Assembly (NCBI GenBank): GCA_947488605.1 | Contig: CANKZJ010000005.1 | Coordinates: 186,001-250,000 of the forward strand | Reading direction: 5' to 3' | Origin: an uncultured Paracoccaceae bacterium | GTDB taxonomy: Bacteria > Pseudomonadota > Alphaproteobacteria > Rhodobacterales > Rhodobacteraceae | DNA length: 64,000 bases | Shown here: one piece after another, positions 19,095-44,115 of the stretch | Numbering within the stretch: the first letter of the stretch is position 1 | How the letters are laid out: the number at the start of each line of letters is the position of its first letter | The notes under the pieces: model-generated | What the model saw: only the letters and a program-made list of their open reading frames with translations | What the model was told of the DNA's origin: nothing | Databases searched by the model: none | Translations under genes and position numbers: made by a program

Positions 19095-19203
19095 AGGCTA
19101 TCCCTTCAAAAACTTAGTCTTCCCTTGCGGGTGATCGGTGCCAACTGCCATAAGCGGCGCAGCGTGTCAAAGCATTTGGCACATGAATTATGAGTAGTTG
19201 GAT

Positions 19204-19893
19204 ATGGGCCGTCATACGCTTGAAGGCAACCCCCCGATTGAGGTCACTTTGCGCCATTCTGCCCGCGCAAAGCGATTGTCGTTGCGGGTGTCTCGGTTGG
19301 ACGGTCGTGTAACGCTGACATTGCCAAAACATGCCGCAGCGCGCGAGGGTGTTTCATTTCTGCGTGAGAAAGAAGCTTGGTTGCGCGGGCATCTTGCCGA
19401 CATAAAGCCGGTCATGTCGCTTGCGCTGGAAAAGACGGTTCTTTTTCGCGGCGAGCCGTGCGCAATAATCCCAAGCTCATCGCGCAAAGCAGCGTTCGAT
19501 GGCAACCGTATTCTTGTCCACCCATCACGTCCCATTGGCGCGCAGATCAAAGGTCTGTTCCGACAACAGGCACGCAATGCATTGGCTGCTGCGTCAGACA
19601 GGTACGCTTCCGCAGTTGGCCGCACGTACTCCCGGCTGACGATCAGGGATACGCGATCTCGTTGGGGGTCTTGCACGGCGGAGGGGGCTTTGATGTATTC
19701 TTGGCGTCTTATTATGGCACCGCCTGCCGTGCTGGACTATGTGGCGGCCCATGAAGTAGCGCATCTCGTTGAGATGAACCATCAGCCCGCGTTTTGGTCT
19801 GTCGTAGCCGGCGTGTGCCCGGACTACGAAGTGCATCGGCGCTGGCTTAGGCAAAACGGGGATCAATTGCATCAAGTCTCTTTCGACGATTGA
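19204..19893 (+). CDS. YgjP-type M48-like metallopeptidase (DUF45)
   Basis: The 229-residue cytoplasmic protein has the zinc metallopeptidase signature HEVAHLVEMNH about 50 residues from the C-terminus (two His and the catalytic Glu). It is followed by FWSVVAGVCPDYEVHRRWL, and preceded by RDTRSRWGSCTAEGALMYSW, the classic YgjP/DUF45 motif. The ATG at 19204 is used; a TTG at 19198 in the same frame is possible and neither has a strong ribosome site. The family role is unknown. The next gene, a GntR regulator, lies 31 bases downstream with a TGTGATCACA palindrome in the gap. Confidence 0.85.
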   Translation: MGRHTLEGNPPIEVTLRHSARAKRLSLRVSRLDGRVTLTLPKHAAAREGVSFLREKEAWLRGHLADIKPVMSLALEKTVLFRGEPCAIIPSSSRKAAFDGNRILVHPSRPIGAQIKGLFRQQARNALAAASDRYASAVGRTYSRLTIRDTRSRWGSCTAEGALMYSWRLIMAPPAVLDYVAAHEVAHLVEMNHQPAFWSVVAGVCPDYEVHRRWLRQNGDQLHQVSFDD

Positions 19894-19906
19894 CGCCGGC
19901 TCCGAA

Positions 19907-19916
19907 TGTGATCACA
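19907..19916. promoter_or_regulatory. TGTGATCACA palindrome before the GntR gene
   Basis: A perfect 10-bp palindrome ends 8 bases before the GntR start. The same 10-mer occurs as pairs upstream of sucC and sdhC. FadR-type GntR proteins bind GT-Nx-AC dyads, which this satisfies (GT-GATC-AC). It is probably an autoregulatory operator. Confidence 0.7.
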
Positions 19917-19924
19917 AATGACGC

Positions 19925-20575
19925 ATGATGCTTCAACCGCGCACCCCTGATAGCAAAACACCCACACATGAACGGGTTTACCGCGCGCTGCGCACCCGCA
20001 TCATGCATGGTGAGATTGCACCTGGCGATGCTTTGACCCTCAGAGGAATTGGCAAGACCTTTGACGTGTCCATGACCCCGGCACGCGAAGCCGTGCGGCG
20101 GCTTGCGGCAGAAGGGGCGTTGTTCTTGTCATCCTCGGGTCGGGTGTCTGCGCCCGCCTTATCGAACGAGCGTATCGAAGAGCTGGCTACGCTCAGAGCG
20201 CTGCTAGAGCCTGAACTGGCATCCCGCGCATTGCCACGTGCGCACTTTGCATTGATTGAGCGGCTTGAGGCGATCAACCAAGGTGTCAATCAAGTGATCG
20301 CGCGCCATGATGCAAGTGGGTATTTACGCATGAACCTGGAGTTCCACCGAACGCTATACCTGCGCGCACAGGCCCCCGCGATGCTTGCCATGACAGAAAC
20401 CGTCTGGTTGCAGCTTGGACCGACGATGCGTGCGCTTTATGGGCGGTTGAACCGAACTGAGCCCCCATACCATCACAAACTGATTTTGGCGGCGCTAAAA
20501 GCAGGGGACGAACCGGGTTTGCGATTGGCTGTGCGGGCCGACGCCACACAAGGTCTTCGGATGTTGAAAGGGTAG
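19925..20575 (+). CDS. GntR family regulator, FCD subfamily (candidate AkgR-like TCA regulator)
   Basis: The 216-residue product has an N-terminal winged helix (THERVYRALRTRIMHGEIAPG, then FDVSMTPAREAVRRLAAEG, about 13-62). An all-helical FCD ligand domain follows (ELATLRALLEPELASRAL, MNLEFHRTLYLRAQAP, HHKLILAALKAGD). The histidine usually found near the end of the FCD domain is replaced in RADATQG, so its metal or effector site may differ. The gene is preceded by TGTGATCACA, also present upstream of sucC and sdhC. R. sphaeroides has a GntR regulator, AkgR, known to activate TCA genes; equivalence is my inference from the shared motif, not from alignment. Confidence 0.75.
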   Translation: MMLQPRTPDSKTPTHERVYRALRTRIMHGEIAPGDALTLRGIGKTFDVSMTPAREAVRRLAAEGALFLSSSGRVSAPALSNERIEELATLRALLEPELASRALPRAHFALIERLEAINQGVNQVIARHDASGYLRMNLEFHRTLYLRAQAPAMLAMTETVWLQLGPTMRALYGRLNRTEPPYHHKLILAALKAGDEPGLRLAVRADATQGLRMLKG

Positions 20576-21633: not shown

Positions 21634-23022
21634 TCAAGCGTGAATGGCGCCGTCTCCGCAGGCCAATGCCGCTTCGCGGACGGCTTCTGAATAGGTCGGG
21701 TGTGCATGACACGTCCGTGCGAGATCTTCGGCAGCGGCGCCGAATTCCATCGCGACGCAAATCTCGTGGATCAAATCGCCAGCCATCGGGCCAATGATAT
21801 GTGCGCCCAAGACCCGATCTGTCGTGGCATCAACAAGGATTTTGACAAAACCGTCGCCTGCGAAATTCGCCTTGGCGCGGGCGTTGCCCATAAAGGGGAA
21901 CTTGCCAACCTTGTAGGTACGTCCTTGTTCTTTCAGGGATTCTTCGGTCTCGCCTACGTTCGCGACCTCTGGGTGCGTATAGATGACACCGGGGATCACG
22001 CCATAGTTCACATGCGGGTGTTGGCCTGCGATGCCTTCGGCGACCGCCATGCCTTCGTCTTCGGCTTTGTGGGCCAGCATGGGGCCTGCGATTGTGTCGC
22101 CAATGGCATAGATGCCCGCGACGTTGGTGGCATAGCGGTCGTTGGTTTTGATCTGCCCCCGCTCTGACATCTCAACACCAAGGGCATCAAGGCCAAGACC
22201 ATCTGTGAAGGGTTTGCGCCCTGTGGCCACCAGAACCGTATCCGCCTGAAGCGTGTGTTCGCTGTCGTCTTTGCGCAGTTTGTAGGTGACTGTCGCCTTG
22301 TTGTTCTTGACTGTAACGCCTTGGACAGCCGCGCCAAGCGTGAACTTAAGTCCTTGCTTTGTGAGCATCTTCTGGAATTGACGGGCGATTTCTTTGTCCA
22401 TACCGGGGGTGATGGCATCAAGGAATTCAACGACTTCTACGTCCGCGCCAAGGCGGGCGTAGACCGAACCGAGCTCAAGCCCGATAACGCCAGCGCCGAT
22501 CACGACTAGTTTCTTGGGGATTTTGCCCAGTTCCAGCGCACCGGTAGAGGTGACAACTGTCTTTTCGTCAACCTCTACTCCGGGCAGGGATGATGCTTCA
22601 GAGCCTGATGCAATCACGATATGTTTGGCCTCGTGGACCTCATCGCCGACCTTGACTTTGCCCGTCTCAGGGACCGATCCCCAGCCTTTCAGCCAGTCTA
22701 TCTTGTTCTTTTTGAACAGAAATTCTATGCCGCCTGTGTTCTGGGCAATTGTTTCGTCCTTGTAGGTCAGCATCTGTTTCCAGTCGACAGACGGTGCTTT
22801 GCCTTTCAGGCCCATGGATGCAAAATTATGTTCTGCCTCATGCAGCATATGCGTCGCGTGCAGCATCGCTTTTGATGGGATGCAGCCGACGTTCAGGCAG
22901 GTGCCGCCCAAGGTTTCGCGCCCTTCGACAACAGCGACTTTCATGCCCAGTTGGGCGCAACGAATAGCGCAGACATAGCCGCCGGGGCCGGCGCCGATTA
23001 CGATGACATCATAGCTGGACAT
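21634..23022 (-). CDS. lpdA: Dihydrolipoyl dehydrogenase (E3)
   Basis: The start at 23022 follows AAGGAG by five bases; the upstream frame is not needed. The 462-residue flavoprotein has an FAD motif ([16 protein letters not shown]), redox disulfide [13 protein letters not shown] (about 41-53), an NAD motif ([20 protein letters not shown]) and the C-terminal active-site [13 protein letters not shown]. It reoxidises dihydrolipoamide in the 2-oxoglutarate dehydrogenase complex, passing electrons to NAD. It is the last gene of the suc cluster, two short genes downstream of sucB, so this copy probably serves SucAB. Confidence 0.96.
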
Positions 23023-23083
23023 GGGGTCTCCTTGGTGGTGTTCAAAGCGTACACAGGCTGTACACAACCTGTGCAGACGTTTG

Positions 23084-23494
23084 TCATATTACGGCTGACA
23101 GTATCATCAGCATGGTTGAGAGGAACCCCACAAACCAGATCAGCGACCGCCATGGGGTCAGACCGAAATAATAGGCGGGGATGTAAAGGATGCGGGCTGT
23201 GAGGTAGGTCCATGCGCAGACCGCACTGAACCCGGTGCCTTTGTCGCCAAGGGTGATGACGACGACAGCGATGGTGAAGAGGATGAGTGCTTCGAAATGG
23301 TTGTTCATCGCGCGGATCAAGCGGCCGGTTTTGTCGCTGACCTGTTCGATGAGAGGCTTGCCAAGACGGCTGCTGTCACGTGGCGACAGGGTTTTGCCAA
23401 CACCAACTTCGATGTTGGTGGGGATCGCCATAAGGGCGAATTGGACAGCTTGGAGAAGGGCCGCGAGGGCGAGGACGGTGAGTTCGGGGGTCAT
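23084..23494 (-). CDS. MAPEG family membrane protein
   Basis: The product has 136 residues from the ATG at 23494 ([15 protein letters not shown]); the longer frame would overlap the upstream gene. Four membrane segments and the conserved region [18 protein letters not shown] match the MAPEG superfamily (small integral membrane proteins related to microsomal glutathione transferases). The bacterial substrate is unknown. It lies between a small secreted protein and lpdA in the 3' part of the suc cluster and is probably co-transcribed. Confidence 0.8.
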
Positions 23495-23513
23495 GGGTAT
23501 TTCGCAAACGAGG

Positions 23514-24032
23514 TCATTCGCTGTCGTCACGCCATAGTGAGCCATCTGCAAACACGACAGCAGTTACATCGGTCTGAACACTACCCGTCCCGCTTGATTC
23601 AAATATCTTTAGTTTGTCATAGGGTTGTCCAGCCATAAACTGGTTATCTTTCCATAGGTAAAACGTATCCGAGGAAGACGTTTGACCTTCTGCAATCCGC
23701 TCGCTCGACTCGCCTGAGAAGGCAAATACCTCGTCGCCAAAAGCACTCAAAAATGTTGAGGTAAACTGAAATCCTACGATTTCTTTTCCAGTAGCATTCT
23801 GGATTACTGGCATAAATCGCATTGAATTTTGATCAAACTCACCTGCGTGATGTTGGAAAAACGGTTCCAGAATATTTATGTCAAGCGTAGTTCTAGAGAC
23901 TGTCTCACTAAACTCATACGTACCATCTTCATTCAGGACTACGACGCGACCGTCAGTCAGTTCAACTGTTTCTGCAAAAGAAAAGGTCGAAAGACATGAA
24001 AATGCAATGGCAATGAACTTATTAGGATGCAT
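23514..24032 (-). CDS. Secreted protein of unknown function (DUF3157-like)
   Basis: The product has 172 residues, with GAGGA seven bases before the ATG and a short signal peptide (FIAIAFSCLSTFSFAE). The mature N-terminus VELTDGRVVVLNEDGTYEF resembles the DUF3157 opening motif (charged residues around LxDGRxVxLNxDGTY). The rest is a beta-rich domain with no recognised motif (GFQFTSTFLSAFGDEVFAFS). It is periplasmic by prediction. It sits between sucB and a MAPEG gene in the TCA cluster, with no obvious link to that pathway. Confidence 0.6.
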   Translation of the reverse strand: MHPNKFIAIAFSCLSTFSFAETVELTDGRVVVLNEDGTYEFSETVSRTTLDINILEPFFQHHAGEFDQNSMRFMPVIQNATGKEIVGFQFTSTFLSAFGDEVFAFSGESSERIAEGQTSSSDTFYLWKDNQFMAGQPYDKLKIFESSGTGSVQTDVTAVVFADGSLWRDDSE

Positions 24033-24078
24033 GTGATTATCCTCATGGAATTGACAACGATTCAGTAAGTAAAGCGGA

Positions 24079-25263
24079 CTACAAATCCATCAACAACCGA
24101 CGTGGATCCTCAAGCGCTTCTTTCACCCGCACAAGGAACGTCACCGCCCCTTTGCCATCCACGATCCGGTGATCGTAGGACAGGGCCAGATACATCATGG
24201 GCCGGATCACGACTTGTCCGTTGATTGCCATTGGACGGTCTTGGATTTTGTGCATGCCGAGGATGCCGGACTGTGGCGGGTTCAGGATGGGCGAGGACAT
24301 GAGCGAGCCGTAGACGCCACCGTTGGAGATGGTGAAGGTGCCGCCTTGCATTTCCGCCATGCTCAGCTTGCCGTCGCGCGCTTTGGCGCCCATTTCGGCG
24401 ATGGCCTTTTCGATAGCGGCAAAAGACATCTGGTCCGCGTCGTTGATCACTGGCACCACAAGGCCCGTGGGCGTGCCTGCGGCGATGCCCATGTTGACGT
24501 AGTTTTTATAGACCACATCGGTGCCGTCGATTTCGGCGTTGACCTCTGGCACTTCGTTCAGGGCGTGCACGCAGGCCTTGGTAAAGAAGGACATAAAGCC
24601 CAGCTTGACGCCGTGTTTCTTTAAAAACAGGTCTTTGTATTCGTTGCGCAGGGCCATCACCTCGGTCATGTCGACCTCGTTGTAGGTGGTCAGCATGGCG
24701 GCGGTGTTTTGGCTGTCTTTGAGGCGGCGCGCAATGGTTTGGCGCAGGCGGGTCATCTTCACGCGCTCTTCGCGTTCTGCCTGATCTGCGGCAACTGGTG
24801 CGCGGGGTGCAGCGGCTGGTGCAGGTGCGGGGGAAGCGAGGGCGTTTAACACGTCCTCTTTCATCACGCGGCCATCTTTGCCGGTGCCTGCGACGTCGGG
24901 CAGGTTGTTTTCGGCCATCAGTTTCTTGGCAGATGGTGCGTCTTCGACATCTTTGGCTGCTGCTGGGGCAGGGGCTGCCTCCGCTTTGGGTTCTTCTTTC
25001 TTGGCCGCGGGGGCCGGCGCTGCATCGCCTTCGGCGATTTGGGCCAGCAACGCGTCAACACCAACGGTTTCGCCTTCGGCTGCGACGATTTCAGACAAGG
25101 TTCCCGCAATCGGGCTTGGCACCTCGACGGTCACTTTGTCGGTTTCCAGCTCGCAGAGCATTTCATCAATGGCAACAGCATCGCCGGGTTGTTTGAACCA
25201 TGTGGCGACAGTGGCCTCCGTCACGGATTCGCCAAGGGTTGGGACGCGGACTTCGGTGCTCAT
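24079..25263 (-). CDS. sucB: Dihydrolipoyllysine succinyltransferase, 2-oxoglutarate dehydrogenase E2
   Basis: The 394-residue product has an N-terminal lipoyl domain with the lipoylated Lys in [13 protein letters not shown] (about 38-50) and an Ala/Pro/Lys-rich linker (about 82-112). The E1/E3-binding domain follows ([22 protein letters not shown]), then the acyltransferase core ending [17 protein letters not shown] with the catalytic His and Asp. The enzyme transfers succinyl from lipoamide to CoA. Its ATG overlaps the sucA stop by one base (TAATG), so it is translationally coupled. Confidence 0.97.
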
Positions 25264-28220
25264 TACTTTGTTCCTTCGACTGTCAGCGCATCATTCACGA
25301 GGGCTGCTTGTTCTGCTTTGTGTTTGCTGGCCAGACCTGTTGCAGGTGAGGCGGCGGCGGCGCGTCCGGCATAGACGGGCCGCGTGTGTTTGGCTTTGAT
25401 CCGGGTGAGGACCCATTCGATGTTGGGTTCCATGAAAGACCACGCACCTTGGTTGCGGGGTTCTTCCTGACACCAGACCATTTCAGCGTTTTTGAACCGT
25501 TCGAGTTCCTTGACAGCCGATTGGGCCGGGAACGGATAGAACTGTTCATAGCGCATGATGTAGACGTCGTTGATCCCGCGTGCGTCGCGTTCTTCCAGCA
25601 GGTCGTAGTAGACTTTGCCCGAGCACATCACGACGCGTTTGATCTTGTCGTCGGCGGCAAGTGTGGTGTCTGAATTGCCGTGTTGTGCGTCATCCCACAG
25701 CACGCGGTGGAAGGATGACCCGACAGTAAATTCCTCGCGTTTGGACACGGCCATTTTGTGCCGTAGTAGCGATTTTGGTGTCATAAGGATCAGCGGTTTG
25801 CGGAAGGTTCGGTGCAGTTGACGGCGCAGCAGGTGGAAGTAGTTCGCAGGCGTTGTGCAGTTGGCCACGATCCAATTGTCGCCGCCGCACATGGTCAGGA
25901 ACCGTTCCAGACGCGCGCTTGAGTGTTCGGGGCCCTGTCCTTCGTACCCGTGGGGTAGCAAGCACACGAGGCCAGACATCCGCAGCCATTTGCTTTCGCC
26001 CGAGCTGATGAACTGGTCGAACATGATCTGTGCGCCGTTGGCGAAATCGCCGAACTGGGCTTCCCAAAGGGTTAGTGCGTTGGGTTCTGCCAGTGAATAG
26101 CCGTACTCAAAACCCAGCACCGCGTATTCAGACAGCATCGAGTCGATGACTTCATACTGTGCTTGCCCCTCGCGGATGTTGTTGAGCGGGTAGTACCGAT
26201 CTTCGTTCTCCTGATTGATCAGGCCAGAGTGCCGGTGGCTGAATGTGCCGCGCGTACAGTCTTGGCCGGACAGGCGGACGGGATAGCCTTCGGTTAGCAG
26301 AGATCCGAAAGCCAATGCCTCGCCGGTGGCCCAGTCGATGTTTTCACCGGTCTCGAACATCTTGGCTTTGTTTTCGATCAGACGGCCAATTGTCTTATGT
26401 AACGGGAAGTTTTCAGGGGCTTTTGATAGTGCTTCGCCGACCGCATTAAAGGTGGCTTCTTCTATGGCTGTGACGCCGCGTTGATAGTCTTCGTCTTTGC
26501 GATCCAGGTGCGACCACTTGCCGTCCAGCCAGTCGGCTTTGTTCGGTTTGTAGGATTTGCCCGCTTCGAATTCTTCATTCAGATAGGCTTGGAATGCGGC
26601 CTTCATGTCTTCGATTTCGCCTTCGGGGATCAGCCCGTCTTGCACCAGACGTTCGGTATAAAGCGTCAGCGTCGTCTTTTGCTTTTTGATTTTCTTGTAC
26701 ATCACCGGGTTGGTGAACATCGGCTCGTCGCCCTCATTGTGACCAAAGCGGCGGTAGCAAATGATGTCGAGCACCACGTCTTTGTGGAACTTTTGACGGA
26801 ATTCTGTGGCGACACGTGCGGCGTGCACCACCGCCTCTGGATCGTCACCGTTGACATGGAAAATGGGCGCTTCGACCATCAGGGCAATATCTGTGGGATA
26901 GGGGCTCGAGCGGCTAAAGTGCGGGGCTGTTGTGAACCCGATCTGGTTGTTCACGACGATATGCATCGTGCCGCCGGTCTTGTGGCCCTTTAGTCCAGAC
27001 AGGCCAAAGCCCTCTGCCACAACGCCTTGGCCTGCAAAGGCTGCGTCGCCATGCAGCAGGATGGCCATGACTTTCGTGCGGTCAGCGTCGTTCTTTTGGT
27101 CTTGCTTGGCGCGGACCTTGCCGATGACAACAGGGTTCACGGCCTCAAGGTGGCTGGGATTCGCTGTCAGGGATAGGTGGACCGTGTTGTCATCAAAGCT
27201 GCGATCCGAGGACGCGCCGAGGTGGTATTTCACATCCCCAGACCCATCCACATCTTCGGGTTTGAATGATCCGCCCTGGAATTCGTTAAAGATCGCGCGG
27301 TATGGTTTTTCCATCACGTTTGCGAGAACCGACAAACGACCACGGTGCGGCATGCCAATGATAATCTCGTCTATGCCCAACTGACCACCACGTTTGATGA
27401 TTTGCTCCATCGCAGGGATCAAGCTTTCGCCACCATCAAGGCCGAACCGCTTGGTGCCCATGTATTTGACGTGCAGGAATTTCTCAAAACCCTCGGCTTG
27501 GACCAATGAATTCAGGATCGCCTTGCGCCCGTTCTTGGTGAAAGCGATTTCTTTACCGTAGCCTTCGATCCGCTCTTTCAACCAGCCCGCTTCTTCGGGG
27601 TTTGAGATATGCATGTATTGCAGCGCAAACGTGCCGCAATAGGTGCGTTGCACGATGGCCATGATGTCGTTCATGGTCGCCACTTCAAGGCCGAGGACGT
27701 TGTCGATAAAGATCGGACGTTCCATGTCTGCCGCAGTGAAACCGTAAGATGCCGGGTCCAGCTCTGGATGCGGTTTCTGGTCGCGCATGCCGAGTGGATC
27801 GAGGTCTGCAATCAAATGACCCCGAATACGGTAGGCGCGAATGATCATCAGCGCACGGATACTGTCGAGGACGGCGGATCGCACTTGGGATTCGTCGAGT
27901 GTGACACCTTTTTCAGCGGCTTTCTCTTTGATCTTTTTGCCTGCCGCCTCTGGCTCGGATGGCCACTGACCATCAAGGGCGGCGGTCAGATCATCGGTTG
28001 GGGCAGGGGGCCAATCGGTGCGTGCCCAAGAGGGGCCCGCGGCCTCGGATTTCGCATCAGCCGGGGCATCGCCCAAGGACCGGAAGAAGGCCTGCCAGCT
28101 TTCATCCACCGCACCGGGGTTGTCAGCGTAGCGGGCGTAGAGCTGCTCCACATACTCCGCGTTATGCCCTTGCAGGAAAGATGAGGCGTGGAAGACGTCG
28201 TTGGGGGAGTGGTCGTTCAT
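25263..28220 (-). CDS. sucA: 2-oxoglutarate dehydrogenase E1
   Basis: The 985-residue thiamine-diphosphate enzyme has the family's N-terminal helix ([23 protein letters not shown]). The catalytic region includes [20 protein letters not shown], the ThDP/metal motif [18 protein letters not shown], and [10 protein letters not shown]. The C-terminal transketolase-like half includes [16 protein letters not shown] and [15 protein letters not shown]-type sequence. It decarboxylates 2-oxoglutarate and succinylates SucB. GAGG precedes the ATG. It overlaps the upstream DUF805 gene by four bases. Confidence 0.97.
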
Positions 28221-28678
28221 GAGGGGACCTCGTGAGGGTTGGGGCCGTATTTGTTTGTACCGAACTTAGATGGAAAAATGGCGGCGATGATGAGCGCGAT
28301 GGACAAAACCGAGCATAGAATACCTATGTAGGAAAAGGGCTCGTCCCATGATTTACCCCAGTCGGTTGTGATCCAAATGATGAAAGTTGCGCCCGCTAAG
28401 ATCGCTGGCCAACCGGGTAGCGAAATGTCTTGAAGGCGTTTCGCGCCAACAGCTGTTAGCGGAATTGTTGATAGAATAGCGAAAGTATCCGACGCAGGCC
28501 AGAATGAGATCGTCGCTTCTTCGATGTCTTTGTTGAGCAAATAGAGGTCAATGCCCATCATCGGCAATGCCAGAACAAAGGTAGCGAGAAAGAACCACCA
28601 ATATTCAGACCGCGAGGCGCGCCCAGAAAATTGGAAAGACTTGGCAAAGCCGATGTTGATGGCTGTCGCGGGTCCCAT
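28217..28678 (-). CDS. DUF805 membrane protein
   Basis: The 153-residue product has the DUF805 motif FQFSGRASRSEYWWFFLATFV (about 15-35) and four membrane segments. KRLQDISLPGW follows, matching the family's RR/KRLHD-x-GxSGW region. The function is unknown. It overlaps the sucA start by ATGA and so is translated in the suc operon between the sucD/lipoprotein pair and sucA. Whether it matters for TCA enzymes or is only a passenger is not known. Confidence 0.85.
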   Translation of the reverse strand: MGPATAINIGFAKSFQFSGRASRSEYWWFFLATFVLALPMMGIDLYLLNKDIEEATISFWPASDTFAILSTIPLTAVGAKRLQDISLPGWPAILAGATFIIWITTDWGKSWDEPFSYIGILCSVLSIALIIAAIFPSKFGTNKYGPNPHEVPS

Positions 28679-28730
28679 TTAGTTATCCAGTCTGTTGCCA
28701 CATGAGTTACGCGTGACTTGGGTTCTATTT

Positions 28731-28976
28731 CTATTGTGCGTTTGAACAAACATAGGTGATCTTGCTGTCACCATTGGGTTGTAATTCGGGTTGTTCTGCT
28801 ACGCTGACCAACGGCAAACCATTACAGAAACTGCCACTTTGCACTTTGGCAGTCATGTCCGCAAAGGACGTAATGGCGGGGTCATAACTGACAGACCCGT
28901 TGATCGTTTCGGTGCCGCCGCATGCCGCAAGAACTGCAAGCCCCGCAACGCAAAAGAAGGTTTGTGTTTTAGTCAT
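28731..28976 (-). CDS. Small lipoprotein in the suc operon
   Basis: The 81-residue product has a lipoprotein signal (TFFCVAGLAVLAACGG, lipobox LAAC with Cys19). A short mature part carries two further Cys (SFCNGLPLVS and ITYVCSNAQ) that could form a disulfide. The start lies three bases after the sucD stop, so it belongs to the transcript. The function is unknown; no homologue is recognised by eye. Confidence 0.65.
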   Translation of the reverse strand: MTKTQTFFCVAGLAVLAACGGTETINGSVSYDPAITSFADMTAKVQSGSFCNGLPLVSVAEQPELQPNGDSKITYVCSNAQ

Positions 28977-28979
28977 GTT

Positions 28980-29861
28980 TTACCCAATCGCTTCCAGCAC
29001 AGCTTCGCCCAGTGTCGCGGGGCTGTCTGCGACGATGATCCCTGCGGATTTCATCGCTTCGATCTTGCTTTCCGCGTCGCCTTTGCCGCCGGCCACAATC
29101 GCACCGGCGTGGCCCATGCGGCGACCCGGAGGCGCTGTACGCCCGGCGATGAAACCTGCTGTTGGCTTCCAGCGCCCCTTTTTCTTTTGAGCGGTCAGGA
29201 ACTCGGCGGCTTCTTCTTCGGCGGACCCGCCGATTTCGCCAATCATGATCATGGAATGTGTTTCGTCATCGTTGAGGAACATGTCCAAAACGTCGATATG
29301 CTCGGTCCCTTTGATGGGGTCGCCGCCGATACCCACGGCTGTGGATTGGCCCAAACCGCTGTCGGATGTTTGCTTGACCGCTTCATAGGTCAGCGTGCCA
29401 GACCGGGACACAACGCCGACCGATCCGCGCTTGTGGATGTGGCCGGGCATGATACCGATTTTGCATGCATCCGGCGTGATGACACCGGGGCAGTTCGGCC
29501 CGATCAGGCGAGATTTGGACCCTTCGAGCGCGCGCTTGACGCGCATCATGTCAAGGACAGGGATGCCTTCGGTGATGCAGATGATCAGTTCCATCTCGGC
29601 GTCGATCGCTTCGAGGATACTGTCCGCCGCGAAGGGTGGGGGCACGTAGATAACCGAGGCGTTGGCCTCGGTCACATGCATCGCCTCATGCACCGAGTTG
29701 AAGATCGGCAGGTCGAGATGCGTCTGCCCACCTTTGCCGGGGGTCACGCCGCCGACCATTTTGGTGCCGTAAGCAATCGCTTGTTCAGAGTGGAATGTCC
29801 CCTGCGAGCCGGTGAGGCCCTGACAGATGACGCGGGTGTTTTCGTTTACGAGAATGGCCAT
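28980..29861 (-). CDS. sucD: Succinyl-CoA synthetase alpha subunit
   Basis: The 293-residue product has the CoA-binding Rossmann start ([21 protein letters not shown], conserved in SucD), the GPNCPGVI motif and the phospho-histidine segment [19 protein letters not shown] near residue 245. AGGA precedes the ATG. With SucC it interconverts succinyl-CoA and succinate with nucleotide phosphorylation. It is separated from sucC by one lipoprotein gene. Confidence 0.97.
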
Positions 29862-29913: not shown

Positions 29914-30459
29914 TTATGAAGAGGGCAATCGGGCGCTGATCAGACTGCTTGACGCGCCGTTACGGGTGCTAATTCGGCCAGTTAGGGTGATGGTCCGGCC
30001 ATCTTTGCTTAACGCGCGGCGACCTGATGCGACCCATCCGTCAGCCCGTAGGCGATTGCCAAGATCATCTAACAGCGCTCTAACGCCTGAATCTCGTCCG
30101 GCACCAAAGTGCTTCAATTGGCAAGTTCGGCCACCAAATCTGCTTGTGATATATTCAATCTCAATCCTTCTGATGGTATCAGAGCTCGCAAAGAAGGAGT
30201 TGGGCACCTCTTTTGTGTAAGACACCTCTGCGGCAAACGCTGACCGAGAATAGCCTAACCCACTTAGGTCGAGCTGTGTGCCTTCAGCAATAAAGCGATA
30301 GCATGCATCAACAAGCGTTGCGTCATCAGTTTGAGCCGTGAGCACCATTACCTGGGAACCGCCGGATGCATTCTGAGAGCTGGATGCGCCGTTTGATGGC
30401 GCCTCACATCCGGCAAGAGTTGTGGCCAAGGCAATTGCGACGAAAGATGAGAACCTCAT
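29914..30459 (-). CDS. Lipoprotein of unknown function between sucC and sucD
   Basis: The 181-residue product has a signal with lipobox LAGC ([14 protein letters not shown], Cys18), a low-complexity Ser/Gly/Asn linker and a mature domain containing two Cys (VDACYRFI and [13 protein letters not shown]). Its ATG overlaps the sucC stop by four bases, so translation is coupled to sucC. I recognise no family. It may act in the outer membrane with no relation to the enzymes around it. Confidence 0.65.
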
Positions 30460-31649
30460 CCCTTCACCGCTTTCACGATCTTTTCAGCGCCGTCTTTCAG
30501 ATCGTCAGCTGCGATCACGTCCACGTCGCTTTCATTGATGATCTTTTTGCCCTCTTCAACGTTCGTGCCTTCGAGGCGAACGACGAGTGGGACTTGCAGG
30601 CCGACTTCTTTCACCGCGGATACAACGCCCTCGGCGATCACGTCGCAGCGCATGATGCCGCCGAAGATGTTCACGAGGATGCCTTTGACCTGTGGGTCGG
30701 AGGTGATGATCTTGAAGGCTTCGGTGACTTTTTCTTTGGTTGCACCACCGCCTACATCGAGGAAGTTGGCGGGTTCGGCACCGTAGAGTTTGATGATGTC
30801 CATCGTCGCCATCGCGAGGCCTGCGCCGTTGACCATGCAGCCGATTTCACCGTCCAGCGCGATATAGTTCAGGTCGAATTTCGACGCGGCAAGCTCTTTG
30901 GGGTCTTCTTCGGTTTCATCGCGCAGGGCGGCGACATCGGCGTGGCGGTAGACCGCGTTGCCGTCGAAAGCGACCTTGGCGTCGAGCACTTTAAGGTCGC
31001 CACCGTCAGTTACGATCAGCGGGTTGATCTCAAGCATCTCCATGTCTTTTTCGACAAAGGCTTGGTACAGCTGGCCCATCAGTTTCACGCATTGTTTGAC
31101 CTGATTGCCCGAGAGGCCAAGTGCGAAAGCGACCCGGCGACCGTGGAATGGCTGGTAGCCTGTTGCGGGATCAACGGTGAAGTTGACGATCTTTTCGGGT
31201 GTGGAAGCGGCGACCTCTTCGATGTCCATGCCGCCTTCGGTGGAGCAGACAAAACCGATGCGGCTGGTCTGACGATCAACTAGCAGAGCGAGGTAGAGTT
31301 CGGTTTCAATACCGGCGCCATCTTCGATATAGATGCGGTTGACGACTTTGCCTGCGGGGCCGGTTTGGTGCGTAACCAATGTGCGGCCCAGCATCTTTTT
31401 GGCTTCTTGGGCTGCTTCTTCGACTGATTTGGCCAGACGTACACCGCCTGCTTCGCCCGCGTCGGCCTCTTTGAATTTGCCCTTGCCGCGTCCGCCAGCG
31501 TGAATTTGCGCTTTGACGACCCAAAGTGGGCCATCAAGTTCGCCAGCGGCAGTTTTGGCATCTTCGGCGCGGGTGACTGGGCGTCCGTCCGAGACGGGGG
31601 CGCCATAGTTGCGCAACAAAGCTTTGGCCTGATATTCGTGAATGTTCAT
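30456..31649 (-). CDS. sucC: Succinyl-CoA synthetase beta subunit
   Basis: The start at 31649 ([18 protein letters not shown]) is the universal SucC N-terminus; the longer frame upstream is not coding. The 397-residue ATP-grasp protein includes [36 protein letters not shown] (metal/nucleotide site) and the C-terminal [16 protein letters not shown]. It is the first gene of the large leftward suc operon. Its upstream region carries two TGTGATCACA palindromes 21 bp apart. Confidence 0.97.
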
Positions 31650-31746: not shown

Positions 31747-31777
31747 TGTGATCACAGGAAATTTTAGTGTGATCACA
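31747..31777. promoter_or_regulatory. Paired TGTGATCACA operators upstream of sucC
   Basis: Two perfect 10-bp palindromes occupy 31747-31756 and 31768-31777, centres 21 bp apart (two helical turns), about 98-128 bp upstream of sucC. The same pair with the same spacing precedes sdhC, and one copy precedes the GntR gene. The pair lies between sucC and a divergent glycosyltransferase, so either or both could be controlled. Confidence 0.78.
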
Positions 31778-31851
31778 AATTCACCTATGCTTTGATTTTC
31801 ATCAACTTTATTCAGTTTTTAAAGATTCGGTATGATGTTAGCAAAGTTGTG

Positions 31852-32871
31852 ATGGTGAATGACATTCCAACATGGGCCGTGGTTGCAACAGTGGATGAAC
31901 CGCCTGCATTGGTGCAGGCGTTTGTGGCTTGGCATTTATCACAGGGTGCTGCGCGAATTTTACTTTATTGCGATCAACCTGATGATCCCGTGCAAGAGAT
32001 GTTGTCCCACTTGCCGCAGGTCAGCGTCATTGTGTGCGATGATCTGCATTGGCAACGGGTCAACAAAAAGCGCCCCCATCGCCATGAGGTCCGCCAAGTG
32101 TGCAATGCCCGCGATGCTTATGCCAAGGCTGAAACAGACTGGGTTTTGCACATCGATGCTGACGAATTTGTTTGGTGCGACAGGGGCGTTGGTGAGGTGT
32201 TAGCCACGGTTTCCAGTGATGCAGATGCTTTGATCACCCCTGTTGCTGAGCGTGTTTATGATGGGAATGCACGCGGTACCACACTGTTTGATGGTGCGTT
32301 CCGCCGACCATTTAGGGGAAACGAAGAGGAAGGACTGCGCTTTTTCGGAGCTGACTATGCGCTGACCAATCGGGGATTGACGGGGCATGCACAGGGCAAG
32401 GCTTTCGTGCAGACGGATAGGCCGCTCAAACTCTCCATTCATCGTCCCCGGATGAAGCGGGGTGTTGGTGAGCCTCGATTTGTTCGTGCTGATGCAGGAG
32501 CGCTTGAACTCTTGCATTTCGAAGGGCTAACCCCGTCCCATTGGGCCTATAAATTGACGCGCATGGCACGCGCTTTTGCAATGGATGATGGGATGCCGCT
32601 GTCGCCGCACCGTCGAAAGCAAGCGGATCTGCTGATAGACGATCCTTATGGCGCAGTTGCGTTGCATGACCGTCTGAAGTGTCCGGATGAAAGACTGCGC
32701 GATCGGCTGAAACGGCGAGGTCTTTGGGCTGTGCCACCATTCGACATTCAATCTGCAATCGAGACTTGGTTTCCGGATCAGGCGATTGATCTCACGCCGC
32801 AGGCAATTGATGCTTGGTTGCAGCGTGAGAAGTCAGATGTGATGTCGTTCCTGCGGCATGACCCTAGTTAA
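31852..32871 (+). CDS. Glycosyltransferase family 2-like protein
   Basis: The product has about 339 residues from the ATG at 31852; a TTG at 31792 in the same frame would overlap the operator region and has no ribosome site. The N-terminal part reads as a GT-A fold of the Glyco_tranf_2_4 type: VVATVDEPPALVQAFVAWHLS, then a metal-binding DxD motif in WVLHIDADEFVW (about 115-126). ELLHFEGLTPSHWAYKL follows. Such enzymes are cytoplasmic and often modify surface glycans. Acceptor unknown. Its 3' end overlaps the convergent gene by 8 bases. Confidence 0.7.
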   Translation: MVNDIPTWAVVATVDEPPALVQAFVAWHLSQGAARILLYCDQPDDPVQEMLSHLPQVSVIVCDDLHWQRVNKKRPHRHEVRQVCNARDAYAKAETDWVLHIDADEFVWCDRGVGEVLATVSSDADALITPVAERVYDGNARGTTLFDGAFRRPFRGNEEEGLRFFGADYALTNRGLTGHAQGKAFVQTDRPLKLSIHRPRMKRGVGEPRFVRADAGALELLHFEGLTPSHWAYKLTRMARAFAMDDGMPLSPHRRKQADLLIDDPYGAVALHDRLKCPDERLRDRLKRRGLWAVPPFDIQSAIETWFPDQAIDLTPQAIDAWLQREKSDVMSFLRHDPS

Positions 32872-34063
32872 AGATGATCATAAAGAGTGCAGCGTCTCCG
32901 CCCAGCATCCGCTGAAATTGGCGCAGGCTTTGCCCGGACATGCGTGTGCCTTCTTCGATGTAGGGCAAGACACCTTCGCCTTGAATGATCGAGATGATGT
33001 CAATCTCTGGTGGGTTTTGCATGATGCTTGCCAGATTGATGCCTGCACCATTTCCAAGTCGCCAATGCGGAATAAGCAAGTCGCCCTTGAGGACGGCTTC
33101 TGCTTCGGCCAAAACCATCCGCCATTGGCTGCCGACATCGGCAGGAAAATCGAGCGGCAGAGCGCTGGTTTGATTGGGGTTCGGGATCCATTCCAGTTTG
33201 TTGTCAGTTTCAGTGGCGACGCGGGACCAGAAGGTTTGATTGTCTTCAATCATACCTAGGAAGTGCGCGTGCGCGTTGCGGGACCGTTCCACATCCGGTT
33301 GGCCTTCGATGGCGTGAATGAACATGGCTAGCACGTCGACCCATGTGTCTTCGTCGGGCATAAAGACCATTTGCCGCCCACCATCGTTAAGGGCGTCCAT
33401 CGCGGCGGCGCTCTCAGTCACACGCTGGATCGCTGATGTTGGATCAAGAGCAAGGACAGTTTCGCTGACACCGGACAGCAAATGGGCATAGGCCGAGAGC
33501 CAGGCAGCATCTGCGGTATCAAATCGCACGACGGGCGGTGTGCCTGCGCCATCAAGGCCACGGTTCATTTGTGTGGCGGCCGTTTCCAACATGCCTTCGC
33601 CAGCGTCGCGGGCGCCATTGGCGTTGATATCGAACCAAAGGTCAGCGGTATTGATAGTGACGGCAACGTTATCTGTGTCGGCAATCGTGTCGAGTGCTAC
33701 CAGGCTGCCGTCTAGTTCTTGCAGCGCATTTGCGAATGTATCAGCGATCACTTCAGGCGTGAAAGGTGCAGCATTTGGGTTGGGTGGCAGCGGTATGCGC
33801 AGAAAGGGCAGGTCGCTCATTTCAGCCATTTCGCGATTGATTTGGGTGGCGTAGAGCGTTTGCAAAGCACCTTCGATTGCGCCCAAAAAGCGGACGCCAC
33901 CCAAAACAAACATATCGGACGGTGTTTGATTTGGTAGCGCTGAAAGGTTGGCTTCGGTTGCTGTAAGACCGTCTTGTGCGATCATCGCAGAATAGTCTGT
34001 TTGGGCATTGGCGGTTGTGGCAAGCGTGATGCTGGCCAACGCGATAGCGGCGGGGATACGCAT
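32864..34063 (-). CDS. Secreted protein of unknown function
   Basis: The start at 34063 has AGGAG seven bases upstream and begins a signal peptide (RIPAAIALASITLATTANAQ). The 399-residue mature-type protein has no family I recognise. Visible features are a calcium-loop-like stretch DINANGARDAGEG, repeated Trp-containing helices (DTADLWFDI, DTADAAWLSAY) and a C-terminal motif HWRLGNGAGINLASI. It lies downstream of the mdh terminator and has its own putative operator (two TGAAC...TTCA 13-mers at 34087-34112), so it is a separately regulated periplasmic protein. Confidence 0.7.
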   Translation of the reverse strand: MRIPAAIALASITLATTANAQTDYSAMIAQDGLTATEANLSALPNQTPSDMFVLGGVRFLGAIEGALQTLYATQINREMAEMSDLPFLRIPLPPNPNAAPFTPEVIADTFANALQELDGSLVALDTIADTDNVAVTINTADLWFDINANGARDAGEGMLETAATQMNRGLDGAGTPPVVRFDTADAAWLSAYAHLLSGVSETVLALDPTSAIQRVTESAAAMDALNDGGRQMVFMPDEDTWVDVLAMFIHAIEGQPDVERSRNAHAHFLGMIEDNQTFWSRVATETDNKLEWIPNPNQTSALPLDFPADVGSQWRMVLAEAEAVLKGDLLIPHWRLGNGAGINLASIMQNPPEIDIISIIQGEGVLPYIEEGTRMSGQSLRQFQRMLGGDAALFMIIFN

Positions 34064-34086
34064 GTTGAAACTCCTATCTAGTAATC

Positions 34087-34112
34087 TGAACATAATTCAT
34101 GAACAATGTTCA
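34087..34112. promoter_or_regulatory. Tandem 13-bp operator-like dyads upstream of the secreted protein gene
   Basis: TGAACATAATTCA (34087-34099) is directly followed by TGAACAATGTTCA (34100-34112). The second is a perfect dyad with a central base and the first an imperfect copy. They end 24 bases upstream of the start codon. Such contiguous dyads are typical of TetR- or MarR-type operators. Confidence 0.5.
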
Positions 34113-39924: not shown

Positions 39925-39955
39925 TGTGATCACGCCTTTTAAAAGTGTGATCACA
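39925..39955. promoter_or_regulatory. Paired TGTGATCACA operators upstream of sdhC
   Basis: TGTGATCACG (39925-39934, one base off the palindrome) and TGTGATCACA (39946-39955) have centres 21 bp apart, exactly as upstream of sucC. They lie about 140-170 bp before sdhC and just after the DUF1194 stop. Confidence 0.78.
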
Positions 39956-40096
39956 AGATTAACAAAACATTTCAAATCGCGACCTTTTTTCACGCCCATG
40001 CGGGGTCAGCCTGCGTGACTCTTGTGAAATGATGGTGCTACAAGAGTGCGAATGGTGTCGTCTCGCCGGCGATGCTAGCCAACGAAGGGAACTGAC

Positions 40097-40480
40097 ATGG
40101 CTGACGTAAACCGGGGCAATCGCCCTTTGTCGCCGCATCTGACGATATATCGTCCGCAGTGGACATCAATCTCATCAATTCTGGTACGTATCACGGGTAA
40201 CGCGTTGATCGTGGCTGCCCTGATGATCGTTTGGTGGTTTGTTGCCGCCGCATCTGGACCCGAGGCATTTGCCGTTGCGAATGGTTTTGTGACCAGCTGG
40301 TTTGGGGATCTGATCATGACACTTTCGGTGTTAGCCCTGTGGTATCATCTGCTGGGTGGCCTGCGCCATTTGGTGTGGGACAGTGGCCGTATGCTTGACG
40401 TGGACAAGTCCGAGATGGCCGCGCAGATGATGATGGTGCTGGCGGTATTGTTGACGATCTTCACGATCATCGCGACGTAA
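40097..40480 (+). CDS. sdhC: Succinate dehydrogenase cytochrome b556 subunit
   Basis: The 127-residue protein starts NRGNRPLSPHLTIYRPQWTS, the SdhC signature, and has three membrane helices. The haem ligand histidine is in LWYHLLGGLRHLVWD (about 82-96). It anchors the SdhAB catalytic head and takes part in ubiquinone binding. GAAGGGA precedes the start. The long upstream region carries the paired TGTGATCACA sites. It is the first gene of sdhC-D-A-x-x-B. Confidence 0.95.
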   Translation: MADVNRGNRPLSPHLTIYRPQWTSISSILVRITGNALIVAALMIVWWFVAAASGPEAFAVANGFVTSWFGDLIMTLSVLALWYHLLGGLRHLVWDSGRMLDVDKSEMAAQMMMVLAVLLTIFTIIAT

Positions 40481-40494
40481 GGGGGACTTCAAAC

Positions 40495-40866
40495 ATGGCT
40501 TTTTTGACCGACCGCAAACGCGCGAATGGCATGGGTTCCGCCAAGACCGGAACCGAGCATCATTGGCAGATGATGGTGTCCTCCGTGGCGCTGTTGTTTC
40601 TTGTCCCTCTTTTTATCTTCACTTTCGGATCGATCCTTGGATCGTCGTATGATGAAGTTATCGCCTATTATCAGCGCCCGTTCCCGGCTGTTGTCGCCGC
40701 GTTGACGATGCTGGTTGGCTTTTTCCACTTTCGTGGTGGTGTCCAAACCTTGATCGAGGACTACGTTCATGGGTTCGCCCGTAAGGTGCTCCTTATTGGC
40801 ATGATCTGTCTGTCCTACGGTGCCGCAGCGTTTGCGGTTTTCGCAATCGTGCGCATCGCCCTTTAA
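40495..40866 (+). CDS. sdhD: Succinate dehydrogenase membrane anchor subunit
   Basis: The 123-residue protein has a hydrophilic N-terminus ending in GSAKTGTEHHWQMMVSSVAL and three membrane segments. The region FHFRGGVQTLIEDYVHG contains the Asp-Tyr and His typical of the SdhD quinone/haem site. GGGGGA lies upstream of the ATG. It lies 14 bases after sdhC and 21 before sdhA. Confidence 0.94.
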   Translation: MAFLTDRKRANGMGSAKTGTEHHWQMMVSSVALLFLVPLFIFTFGSILGSSYDEVIAYYQRPFPAVVAALTMLVGFFHFRGGVQTLIEDYVHGFARKVLLIGMICLSYGAAAFAVFAIVRIAL

Positions 40867-40887
40867 TTCCCCCGGAGCTTTTGACTT

Positions 40888-42693
40888 ATGGCTGCATATG
40901 AATACGAAACGCATACCTACGACGCGATTGTTGTAGGGGCAGGCGGCGCTGGGCTGCGGGCGACTTTGGGTCTGGCCGAGCAAGGCTTGCGCACGGCCTG
41001 TATCACAAAGGTTTTCCCGACCCGGTCGCACACTGTTGCAGCACAGGGCGGTATTGCCGCGTCTTTGGGCAACATGGGTCCAGATAGCTGGCAGTGGCAT
41101 ATGTATGACACCGTCAAAGGCTCTGACTGGTTGGGTGATACCGACGCGATGGAGTATCTGGCACGTGAGGCGCCTAAGGCGGTTTATGAGCTTGAGCACT
41201 ACGGCGTGCCATTTTCGCGCACCGAAGAAGGCAAGATTTATCAGCGGCCCTTTGGTGGCCACACAACCGAGTTTGGTGAAGGCCCACCCGTGCAGCGCAC
41301 CTGTGCGGCTGCTGACCGGACCGGCCACGCAATCCTGCACACGCTTTATGGTCAGTCGCTGAAACAGCAGGCTGAATTTTATATCGAATACTTCGCGCTT
41401 GATCTGATTATGTCTGACGATGGCATTTGTCAGGGTGTCATCGCTTGGAAACTTGATGACGGCACAATGCACGTGTTCAATGCCAAGACAGTTGTTCTGG
41501 CGACGGGCGGTTATGGCCGTGCGTATTTCAGCGCCACATCTGCCCACACCTGCACAGGTGACGGCGGCGGTATGGTGGCCCGTCAGGGTCTGCCGCTGCA
41601 GGATATGGAATTCGTGCAATTCCACCCAACTGGCATTTATGGTGCGGGTTGCCTGATTACCGAAGGCGCACGCGGTGAAGGTGGTTATTTGACCAACTCC
41701 GAGGGTGAGCGATTTATGGAGCGTTATGCGCCTAACTATAAAGACCTCGCACCGCGCGACTATGTCAGTCGCTGTATGACGATGGAAATCCGCGAAGGGC
41801 GCGGTGTGGGTGCGGGGGGTGATCATATTCACCTCAACCTCAACCACCTTCCCAAAGAAGCTTTGGCCGAACGCCTGCCAGGCATTTCGGAAAGCGCACG
41901 CATTTTTGCGGGTGTTGATGTGACCAAGGAAGCGATCCCTGTTCTGCCGACTGTGCACTATAACATGGGCGGTATTCCGACGAACTATTACGGTGAGGTT
42001 CTGAACCCCACCAAGAAAGACCCAACCGCTGTTGTGCCGGGTCTGATGGCCGTCGGTGAAGCTGGTTGCGCGTCTGTGCATGGTGCGAACCGTCTTGGGT
42101 CAAACAGCCTGATCGACCTTGTGGTCTTTGGCCGCGCTGCCGCGATCCGTGCAGGTGAGGTAGTGGACCGTACGGCACCAAATCCGACATTGAACCAAGC
42201 GTCTGTGGATGCATGTTTTGATCGTTTTGACGGGCTACGCCATGCCAAAGGCACCGTTGGCACTGCCGAGCTGCGATTGGAAATGCAAAAGGCGATGCAG
42301 GCAGATGCTGCTGTGTTCCGCACCGACAAAACACTTGGCGAAGGTGTCGCGAAGATGACGGCTATCGCGGAAAAGATGGATGATATTTCTGTCACGGACC
42401 GCAGTCTTGTTTGGAACAGCGACCTGATGGAAACGCTGGAGCTGACGAACCTGATGCCAAATGCATTGGCGACCATCGTAGGTGCCGAGGCGCGCAAAGA
42501 AAGCCGCGGTGCGCACGCGCATGAGGACTATGCGACGCGTGATGACGAGAAATGGCGCGTACATACGCTCAGCCATATTGATGCGGCGAAAGTGAAACTA
42601 AGCTATCGCCCTGTGATCACCAAAGGCCTCACGACAGAAGCCGAGGGCGGCATTTCCGAGGCAAGAATTGCACCGAAAGAACGGACATTCTGA
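40888..42693 (+). CDS. sdhA: Succinate dehydrogenase flavoprotein subunit
   Basis: The 601-residue product has a FAD-binding motif ([20 protein letters not shown]), the flavin-attaching His in [18 protein letters not shown], and the substrate region [37 protein letters not shown] is near the C-terminus. It oxidises succinate to fumarate on the cytoplasmic face. GGAG precedes the ATG. Its stop overlaps the following lipoprotein start by one base. A 530-codon antisense frame here is a composition artefact. Confidence 0.98.
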
Positions 42694-43025
42694 TGCGTAT
42701 TCTGGCTTCACTTGCTGTTGGGTCGGCCCTGCTAGCAGGGTGCATGCAGGACCTTGGTCCCGCTGGTGATACCTTGGCCCGTGATGCTGCGAAGGGCGTG
42801 GTGAATAATGTCGTTCAAACCCGGTTCCCGGGTGTCGATGCGCGGCCCTATACTGATTGCATTATCGACAATGCGTCGACGTCAGAGATTTTCCAAATCG
42901 CTGAGGCGGCCTTGGTTGGGACAACACAAACCACAACCAACTTGATCGTTGATATTGCGCAGCGGCCTGACACTGTGCGCTGTGCGTTGAATAACTCGCT
43001 TGGTTTGGGTGGGTTGGTTTTATGA
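42693..43025 (+). CDS. Small lipoprotein between sdhA and sdhB (1)
   Basis: The 110-residue product has a lipoprotein signal with lipobox LLAGC (Cys17 in SALLAGCMQDLGPAG). The mature part begins with an amphipathic segment (DTLARDAAKGVVNNVVQTRFPG) and carries two Cys (YTDCIIDNAS and TVRCALNNS) that could form a disulfide. It starts at the last base of sdhA, so translation is coupled. No known family is recognised. Its location inside the sdh operon suggests conserved co-expression. Confidence 0.7.
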   Translation: MRILASLAVGSALLAGCMQDLGPAGDTLARDAAKGVVNNVVQTRFPGVDARPYTDCIIDNASTSEIFQIAEAALVGTTQTTTNLIVDIAQRPDTVRCALNNSLGLGGLVL

Positions 43026-43306
43026 TCCGCGTGGCGTTCATAATCGGCGCGGTTTTTGTCGCAGCCTGCACGCCCATGACGCCGGAACGCGCAGCAGACC
43101 GTTGCGAAGAGCGTGCGCGGTCGGCGCAAGGTCCAGACGTCGGATTAAGCATTGGCGCAAATAGCAATTCCGGTCCTTTTGGGGCGGCCAGTATCGGGTT
43201 CAGTACAGATTTTCTGCGCGGTCGCGATCCACTTGAAGTTTATGAAAGCTGTGTGATTGACCTGACGGGTCAGCCACCCATCCGGCCTGTCAGGTTGCGG
43301 GCCTAA
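43022..43306 (+). CDS. Small lipoprotein between sdhA and sdhB (2)
   Basis: The 94-residue product has a signal ending in lipobox VAAC (Cys16 in [15 protein letters not shown]). A Cys-containing helix ([15 protein letters not shown]) and a Gly/Ser-rich stretch follow, ending near [12 protein letters not shown]. It overlaps the preceding lipoprotein by ATGA. The two adjacent lipoproteins may act together in the envelope. The domain is not recognised. Confidence 0.7.
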
Positions 43307-43335
43307 GCCCCGGCCAAGCGAGAAGAGAGAAGAAA

Positions 43336-44115
43336 ATGGTACAACTGACACTTCCCAAAAACTCCCGCATGAAGGTGGGTAAGACATGGCCAAAGCCAGA
43401 CGGTGCCACGAACTTGCGCAAGGTGCAGGTCTATCGTTGGAACCCCGACGACGGCGAAAACCCGCAATTGGACACGTATTTCCTTGATATGGATAGCTGC
43501 GGTCCGATGGTTCTGGACGCGCTGATCAAGATCAAGAACGAGATTGACCCGACCTTGACCTTCCGCCGGTCATGCCGCGAAGGCATTTGTGGGTCTTGTG
43601 CGATGAACATCGACGGGATCAACACGCTGGCCTGCATTTATGGCATGGATGAAATCAAGGGCGATGTGAAGATCTACCCATTGCCGCATATGCCGGTGAT
43701 CAAAGACCTGATCCCAGATCTGACGCATTTCTACGCGCAGCATGCGTCGGTTATGCCGTGGCTAGAGACGAAAACAAACCGCCCCGCAAAAGAGTGGAAG
43801 CAGTCTGTGGATGACCGCAAAAAGCTTGATGGGCTTTATGAGTGTGTCATGTGCGCGTGTTGTTCGACGTCTTGCCCATCTTACTGGTGGAATGGTGATC
43901 GGTATCTGGGGCCAGCTGCGTTATTGCATGCGTATCGCTGGATCATCGACAGCCGTGATGAAGCAACAGGCGAACGGTTGGACGAGCTGGAAGATCCGTT
44001 CAAGCTTTACCGTTGTCACACGATCATGAACTGTGCAAAGACATGTCCGAAGGGTTTAAACCCTGCCAAGGCGATCGCGCATATCAAAGGCATGATGGTC
44101 GAGCGGGTCGTCTGA
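43336..44115 (+). CDS. sdhB: Succinate dehydrogenase iron-sulfur subunit
   Basis: The 259-residue product has the [2Fe-2S] ligands in [15 protein letters not shown], the [4Fe-4S] motif in [16 protein letters not shown] and the third cluster in [20 protein letters not shown]. It carries electrons from the SdhA flavin to the membrane quinone site. A purine-rich GAGAAGAGAGAAG lies upstream of its start. It closes the sdh operon after two small lipoproteins. Confidence 0.98.

Follow-up and report, generated by a model that had tools for sequence, protein, structure and literature searches.

Introduction

Going by excerpts of two papers, the combination of a GntR-family regulator, the suc and sdh operons and the motif GTGATCAC is a known kind of switch in Rhodobacter sphaeroides, because the GntR protein RSP_0981 has been predicted to regulate RSP_0967-6, 0974-6 and 0965-62 (PMC4344238), and GTGATCAC is given among the sites of AkgR, which is called a transcriptional activator (PMC6365646). 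In the excerpt of PMC4344238 the predicted targets of RSP_0981 are the same enzymes as those treated here, namely sucCD, sucAB-lpd and sdh. A further system comes from Pseudomonas simiae, where a PS417_07240-type GntR regulator of deoxyribonate catabolism, 32% identical to AkgR, has been proposed to bind GTGATCAC; according to the same excerpt, this system differs in its target genes and in the single palindrome that lies upstream of the regulator's own cluster (PMC6365646).

Here we compare with these systems a stretch of 64,000 nucleotides from an uncultured Paracoccaceae bacterium, which we call the window and in which coordinates are given unless stated otherwise. We take AkgR to be RSP_0981, and AkgR reportedly acts on TCA genes, a result attributed to Imam, Noguera and Donohue 2015 (mBio e02461-14). 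The best solved relative of the window's regulator is McbR (PDB 4p9f; E 6.2e-18), presumably from Escherichia coli, which is distant in sequence. What is of interest in the locus is the fixed pitch of its operators, their helical phasing and their dual architecture, a strict geometry that relatives keep to an unusual degree; a 21-bp tandem geometry is not mentioned in excerpts of four papers that name AkgR. We consider it highly probable that the pairs described below are tandem operators of an AkgR-type GntR protein, predicted to activate suc and sdh and to repress gntR itself.

Results

Operators and genes of the window

The preliminary description had claimed twin palindromes upstream of sucC, their exact recurrence before sdhC and a single copy before a GntR gene. 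We found TGTGATCACA at both positions before sucC, separated by an 11-bp spacer and thus 21 bp apart from centre to centre, and confirmed the lone copy preceding the GntR gene. Before sdhC, however, the recurrence is exact in spacing but not in sequence, since the distal arm carries one mismatch. The operators, promoter elements and genes are as follows.

19890..19894, plus strand: TTGAC, probable -35 of the gntR promoter
19907..19916, no strand: single operator of the gntR promoter, TGTGATCACA, 8 bp short of the gntR ATG
19925..20575, plus strand: gntR, GntR regulator with an FCD domain and very probable orthologue of AkgR
21634..29861, minus strand: rest of the suc operon (sucD to lpd)
21634-23067, minus strand: lpd
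24079-25263, minus strand: sucB
25263-28220, minus strand: sucA
28980-29861, minus strand: sucD
30456..31649, minus strand: sucC, ADP-forming succinate-CoA ligase beta subunit, first gene of sucCD-sucAB-lpd (NF001913)
31747..31756, no strand: suc pair, sucC-proximal operator, TGTGATCACA
31768..31777, no strand: suc pair, sucC-distal operator, TGTGATCACA
31792-32871, divergent from sucC: glycosyltransferase (PF13704)
39925..39934, no strand: sdh pair, distal operator, TGTGATCACG, one mismatch
39946..39955, no strand: sdh pair, proximal operator, TGTGATCACA
40014..40019, plus strand: CGTGAC, conserved, probable -35 of the sdh promoter, 59 bp past the proximal operator core
40097..44115, plus strand: sdh operon
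40097-40480, plus strand: sdhC
40495-40866, plus strand: probable sdhD, named from its position
40888-42693, plus strand: sdhA
43336-44115, plus strand: sdhB

The names of sucD, sucA, sucB and lpd follow from their Pfam domains and gene order. The open reading frame listed for sucC (start 31745) is over-extended: the NF001913 model begins at its residue 33, and for this reason the start was placed at the ATG at 31649, which puts the core of the suc pair 98 bp upstream of sucC. The gntR gene lies near suc and sdh, beyond lpd. Regulation of the divergent glycosyltransferase is improbable, because mdh occupies that side of sucC in 13 of 15 sucC loci of relatives; a distant glycosyltransferase-like match was seen in one of the 15 (L018). 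In the window, the interval between sucC and mdh (31792-34093) holds the PF13704 glycosyltransferase and a gene with no match in Pfam.

Four exact copies of TGTGATCACA occur in the window, where 100 dinucleotide shuffles gave a mean of 0.05 and a maximum of 1, and the core pair GTGATCAC-N13-GTGATCAC is found exactly twice in the whole genome. A literature search for TGTGATCACA combined with GntR found no paper. In favour of a chance origin or a non-regulatory repeat, single copies recur, five of the nine exact TGTGATCACA in the whole genome lying outside the window; moreover, allowing up to three mismatches, the genome contains 66 pairs, two of them exact, against 4 for the reversed control, an excess that is mostly unexplained, with a control that is perhaps too low because reversal creates CTAG. 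This word is avoided by many bacteria. We nevertheless regard this explanation as negligible, given that exact pairs stand before the same genes across genera, at one spacing and with varying spacers (see below). The palindromes can also be read as TGTGA and TCACA half-sites, which the CRP consensus resembles, and hence as CRP/FNR-type sites. CRP, however, needs six bases between the half-sites (TGTGA-N6-TCACA), whereas they abut at the suc, sdh and gntR sites, and the distance that is fixed here is the one between palindromes; we therefore rejected this reading as extremely improbable.

Conservation of the pair and of its 21-bp pitch

A scan of related genomes for the pair at suc and sdh promoters had been named beforehand as the check, and the pair proved to be conserved. 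The family sample comprised 295 genomes of 294 genera from the window's family, which we infer to be Rhodobacteraceae, and 249 of these contained the exact core pair, about 177 of them twice, about 67 once and five three times. The reversed pattern was absent from all 295, which is a weak control because reversal makes CTAG. In a better control, any gap of 0-30 bp was allowed between the cores in 61 genomes; a match was obtained in 51 of these, and among the matches listed (75 places in 37 of the 51 genomes, counted manually) 66 had the N13 gap, 3 had N12, 2 had N10 and 4 had other gaps. A class-wide draw of 190 genomes yielded the pair in three, these being the window's genome, one of the two other family members and G446, and the reversed pattern in one.

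As to the genes downstream, we first placed 83 distinct pairs, two from the window and 30, 11 and 40 from relatives. Forty-one of them lie 96-150 bp upstream of sucC and 40 lie 107-191 bp upstream of sdhC, the remaining two preceding sucA (G177) and fumC (G042). Four of the five three-pair genomes contributed 12 further pairs, 11 of which precede sucC or sdhC, while one (G276, L282) is upstream of genes that could not be linked to the TCA cycle. Altogether, 94 of the 95 placed pairs, a count that leaves out the G446 pair, stand before TCA genes, nearly all of them sucC or sdhC. The spacer sequence between the operators varies across genomes, so that what is conserved is position and pitch rather than a copied block.

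Some variations on this arrangement were observed. In G135, G191 and G285 (loci L276, L278 and L284), which represent three genera, sucC is preceded by a run of three operators spaced exactly 21 bp apart. In G042 the pair before fumC (L031, 1501-1529) is the third of that genome, and the AkgR-type regulon may extend to fumarase there. In G446, which belongs to another family, a 21-bp pair at 992-1020 of L192 directly precedes an open reading frame for an FCD GntR protein (1028-1903), which suggests that related regulators share this operator geometry outside the family.

The regulator gene and its own operator

Both the GntR helix-turn-helix domain (PF00392) and the FCD domain (PF07729) scored over the cut-off in the protein encoded at 19925-20575. 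A match to it at E 1e-30 or better was present in 274 of the 295 family genomes, a few weak matches among these being possible paralogues. Where gntR was absent, 18 genomes lacked the pair and 3 had it, and where gntR was present, 28 lacked the pair and 246 had it (Fisher p about 1e-13, a value that overstates independence because the genomes are related). Recounting seven weak matches as absent changed these numbers to 21, 7, 25 and 242 (p about 6e-14). The three genomes with a pair and no gntR match are G096, G256 and G264, of 77, 93 and 77% completeness, the last of which was placed among the 21 genomes without gntR by inference. A pair with one mismatch was detected in 10 of 25 tested out of the 28 genomes that have gntR and lack the exact pair, and in 2 of 14 tested out of the 18 genomes with neither, so some of the one-mismatch pairs are due to chance.

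The exact operator was found in 56 of 74 gntR upstream regions, 45 of these 56 having the arrangement TTGAC-N13-GTGATCAC. The 74 regions come from the 30 best matches, one of which is the window, from 40 hand-picked among the matches listed and from four named genomes; they lean to close relatives and leave out Rhodobacter capsulatus, which has the operator in its gntR promoter, and Cereibacter changlensis, whose gntR is cut by a contig end. Since the operator is missing in 18 of the 74, including those of Cereibacter johrii, C. azotoformans, C. ovatus and Fuscovulum, autoregulation is not universal. In the window, the stop codon of a YgjP-like metallopeptidase gene (19198-19893) overlaps the TTGAC of gntR, and of the 30 best gntR loci, window included, 29 have such a gene upstream of the regulator.

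The co-occurrence counts cover the 19925 gene, one of ten FCD matches in the genome, and one of the nine others might act on the pairs instead. Related proteins can share the motif, as is evident from the G446 pair before an FCD GntR gene outside the family and from the excerpt that reports GTGATCAC before a P. simiae gntR-like gene (PMC6365646). On the other hand, exact GTGATCAC occurs at only two of the ten FCD loci, just upstream of the 19925 gene and at L073, where it lies some 120 bp before the likely regulator start and within the 3'-terminal part of an adjacent open reading frame. Moreover, it is the 19925 gene that is near suc and sdh, and its absence tracks the loss of the pair. We thus deem another FCD regulator very unlikely. 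The proposal of the preliminary description, a single FadR-type GntR protein, that of 19925, at both suc and sdh, is supported on several counts: the pair is conserved, stands before sucC and sdhC and co-occurs with gntR; the gntR promoter carries an operator; and what the published excerpts say of RSP_0981 and AkgR fits.

Relation to AkgR

Six named genomes, sampled through a search for reaction-centre proteins, were examined for gntR and the pair: C. johrii, C. azotoformans (filed as Luteovulum), C. ovatus, C. changlensis, R. capsulatus and Fuscovulum blasticum. All six contained a gntR homologue of 72-77% identity, and all contained the pair, five of them twice and R. capsulatus once. In C. 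johrii there is a sole close homologue (74% identity, the next one 29%) and the gene order is sucC, mdh, further genes, sdhC, sdhD, sdhA, a small ORF, sdhB, a small ORF and gntR. The orthologue is thus the second gene beyond sdhB, which is about the position reached five tags beyond 0976, in accordance with RSP_0981 as far as the excerpt goes.

With C. johrii standing in as a proxy for R. sphaeroides, the gntR gene of the window is very probably the orthologue of AkgR. In common with AkgR/RSP_0981, as described in the excerpts, it has the GntR family, the predicted suc and sdh targets and the site: GTGATCAC is present both in the window and in the family, and the targets agree as judged by the sites before sucC and sdhC. 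There are also differences. The C. johrii orthologue lies beyond sdhB, whereas the window gene lies beyond lpd; and an operator stands in the promoter of the window gntR, as in that of R. capsulatus, in contrast to three Cereibacter loci and Fuscovulum.

Promoter geometry

Downstream of the sdh pair, a promoter-like element CGTGAC...TA is conserved. When the first match was taken, 33 of 40 sdh sequences contained [CG]GTGAC, 7 being without it by that pattern, and in 29 of the 33 it lies 56-59 bp past the proximal operator. The other four distances are 47, 68, 77 and 78 bp. Relative to the mode of 58, the first is shorter by 11 bp and the rest are longer by 10, 19 and 20 bp; these displacements are close to whole helical turns, those of the elements at 77 and 78 being 19-20 bp and not 21. 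The suc promoter is less clear, with a loose [CG][GTC]TT[TC] element 44-46 bp downstream in 31 of 41 sequences, counted manually, and absent at that distance from the window itself. At gntR, the operator lies over the place where a -10 region would be expected, its GTGATCAC core beginning 13 bp after TTGAC.

Discussion

We propose the following mode of action. Two dimers of the FCD GntR protein from 19925-20575 would occupy the same side of the DNA, separated by two helical turns, and the fixed spacing makes cooperative binding at the pair likely. Placed upstream of the suc and sdh promoters, the dimers would activate sucCD-sucAB-lpd and sdhCDAB, and contact of the activator with RNA polymerase would account for the fixed distance between the sdh pair and its element. 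At gntR, a single operator over the expected -10 region would lead to autorepression. It is from the geometry of operators and promoters that we infer both modes: activation at suc and sdh is suggested by that geometry together with AkgR being called an activator, and autorepression at gntR is suggested by geometry alone.

The same protein, bound to the same sites, could instead repress suc and sdh. Repressors are common among the characterised FCD GntR proteins, and the operator at the regulator's own promoter does overlap the expected -10. A pair located 56-59 bp upstream of a -35-like element, as in 29 of 33 sdh sequences, nevertheless suits contact activation better than occlusion, and AkgR is called a transcriptional activator in the excerpt (PMC6365646). 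We consider repression of suc and sdh unlikely and prefer activation.

Going one step further, we incline slightly towards the view that the mode of the regulator is written in an architecture kept by the family, in which promoter-phased operators at a 21-bp pitch, two or in some genera three, mark TCA-cycle activation and a single operator fixed in the regulator's own promoter marks autorepression. Such an arrangement would tie one regulator to TCA-cycle control across a large bacterial family, by a simple and testable geometry of a two-turn pitch and a near whole-turn displacement from the promoter. It would also make it possible to predict AkgR-type regulons from the DNA of hundreds of genomes, with hints of growth, as at fumC in one genome, or of loss.

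A further observation concerns the FCD domain, in which the candidate metal positions N137, H141, H184 and D206 are invariant in 22 aligned sequences, these being the window protein and 21 of 36 orthologues tried, as a strict anchor pattern left out 15 orthologues and three of four paralogues. The metal ligands of the FadR subfamily (FCD) are Asp-His-His-His. We take N137 and D206 to sit where the Asp and a His ligand are expected, and perhaps the effector site of the window's FCD domain is altered.
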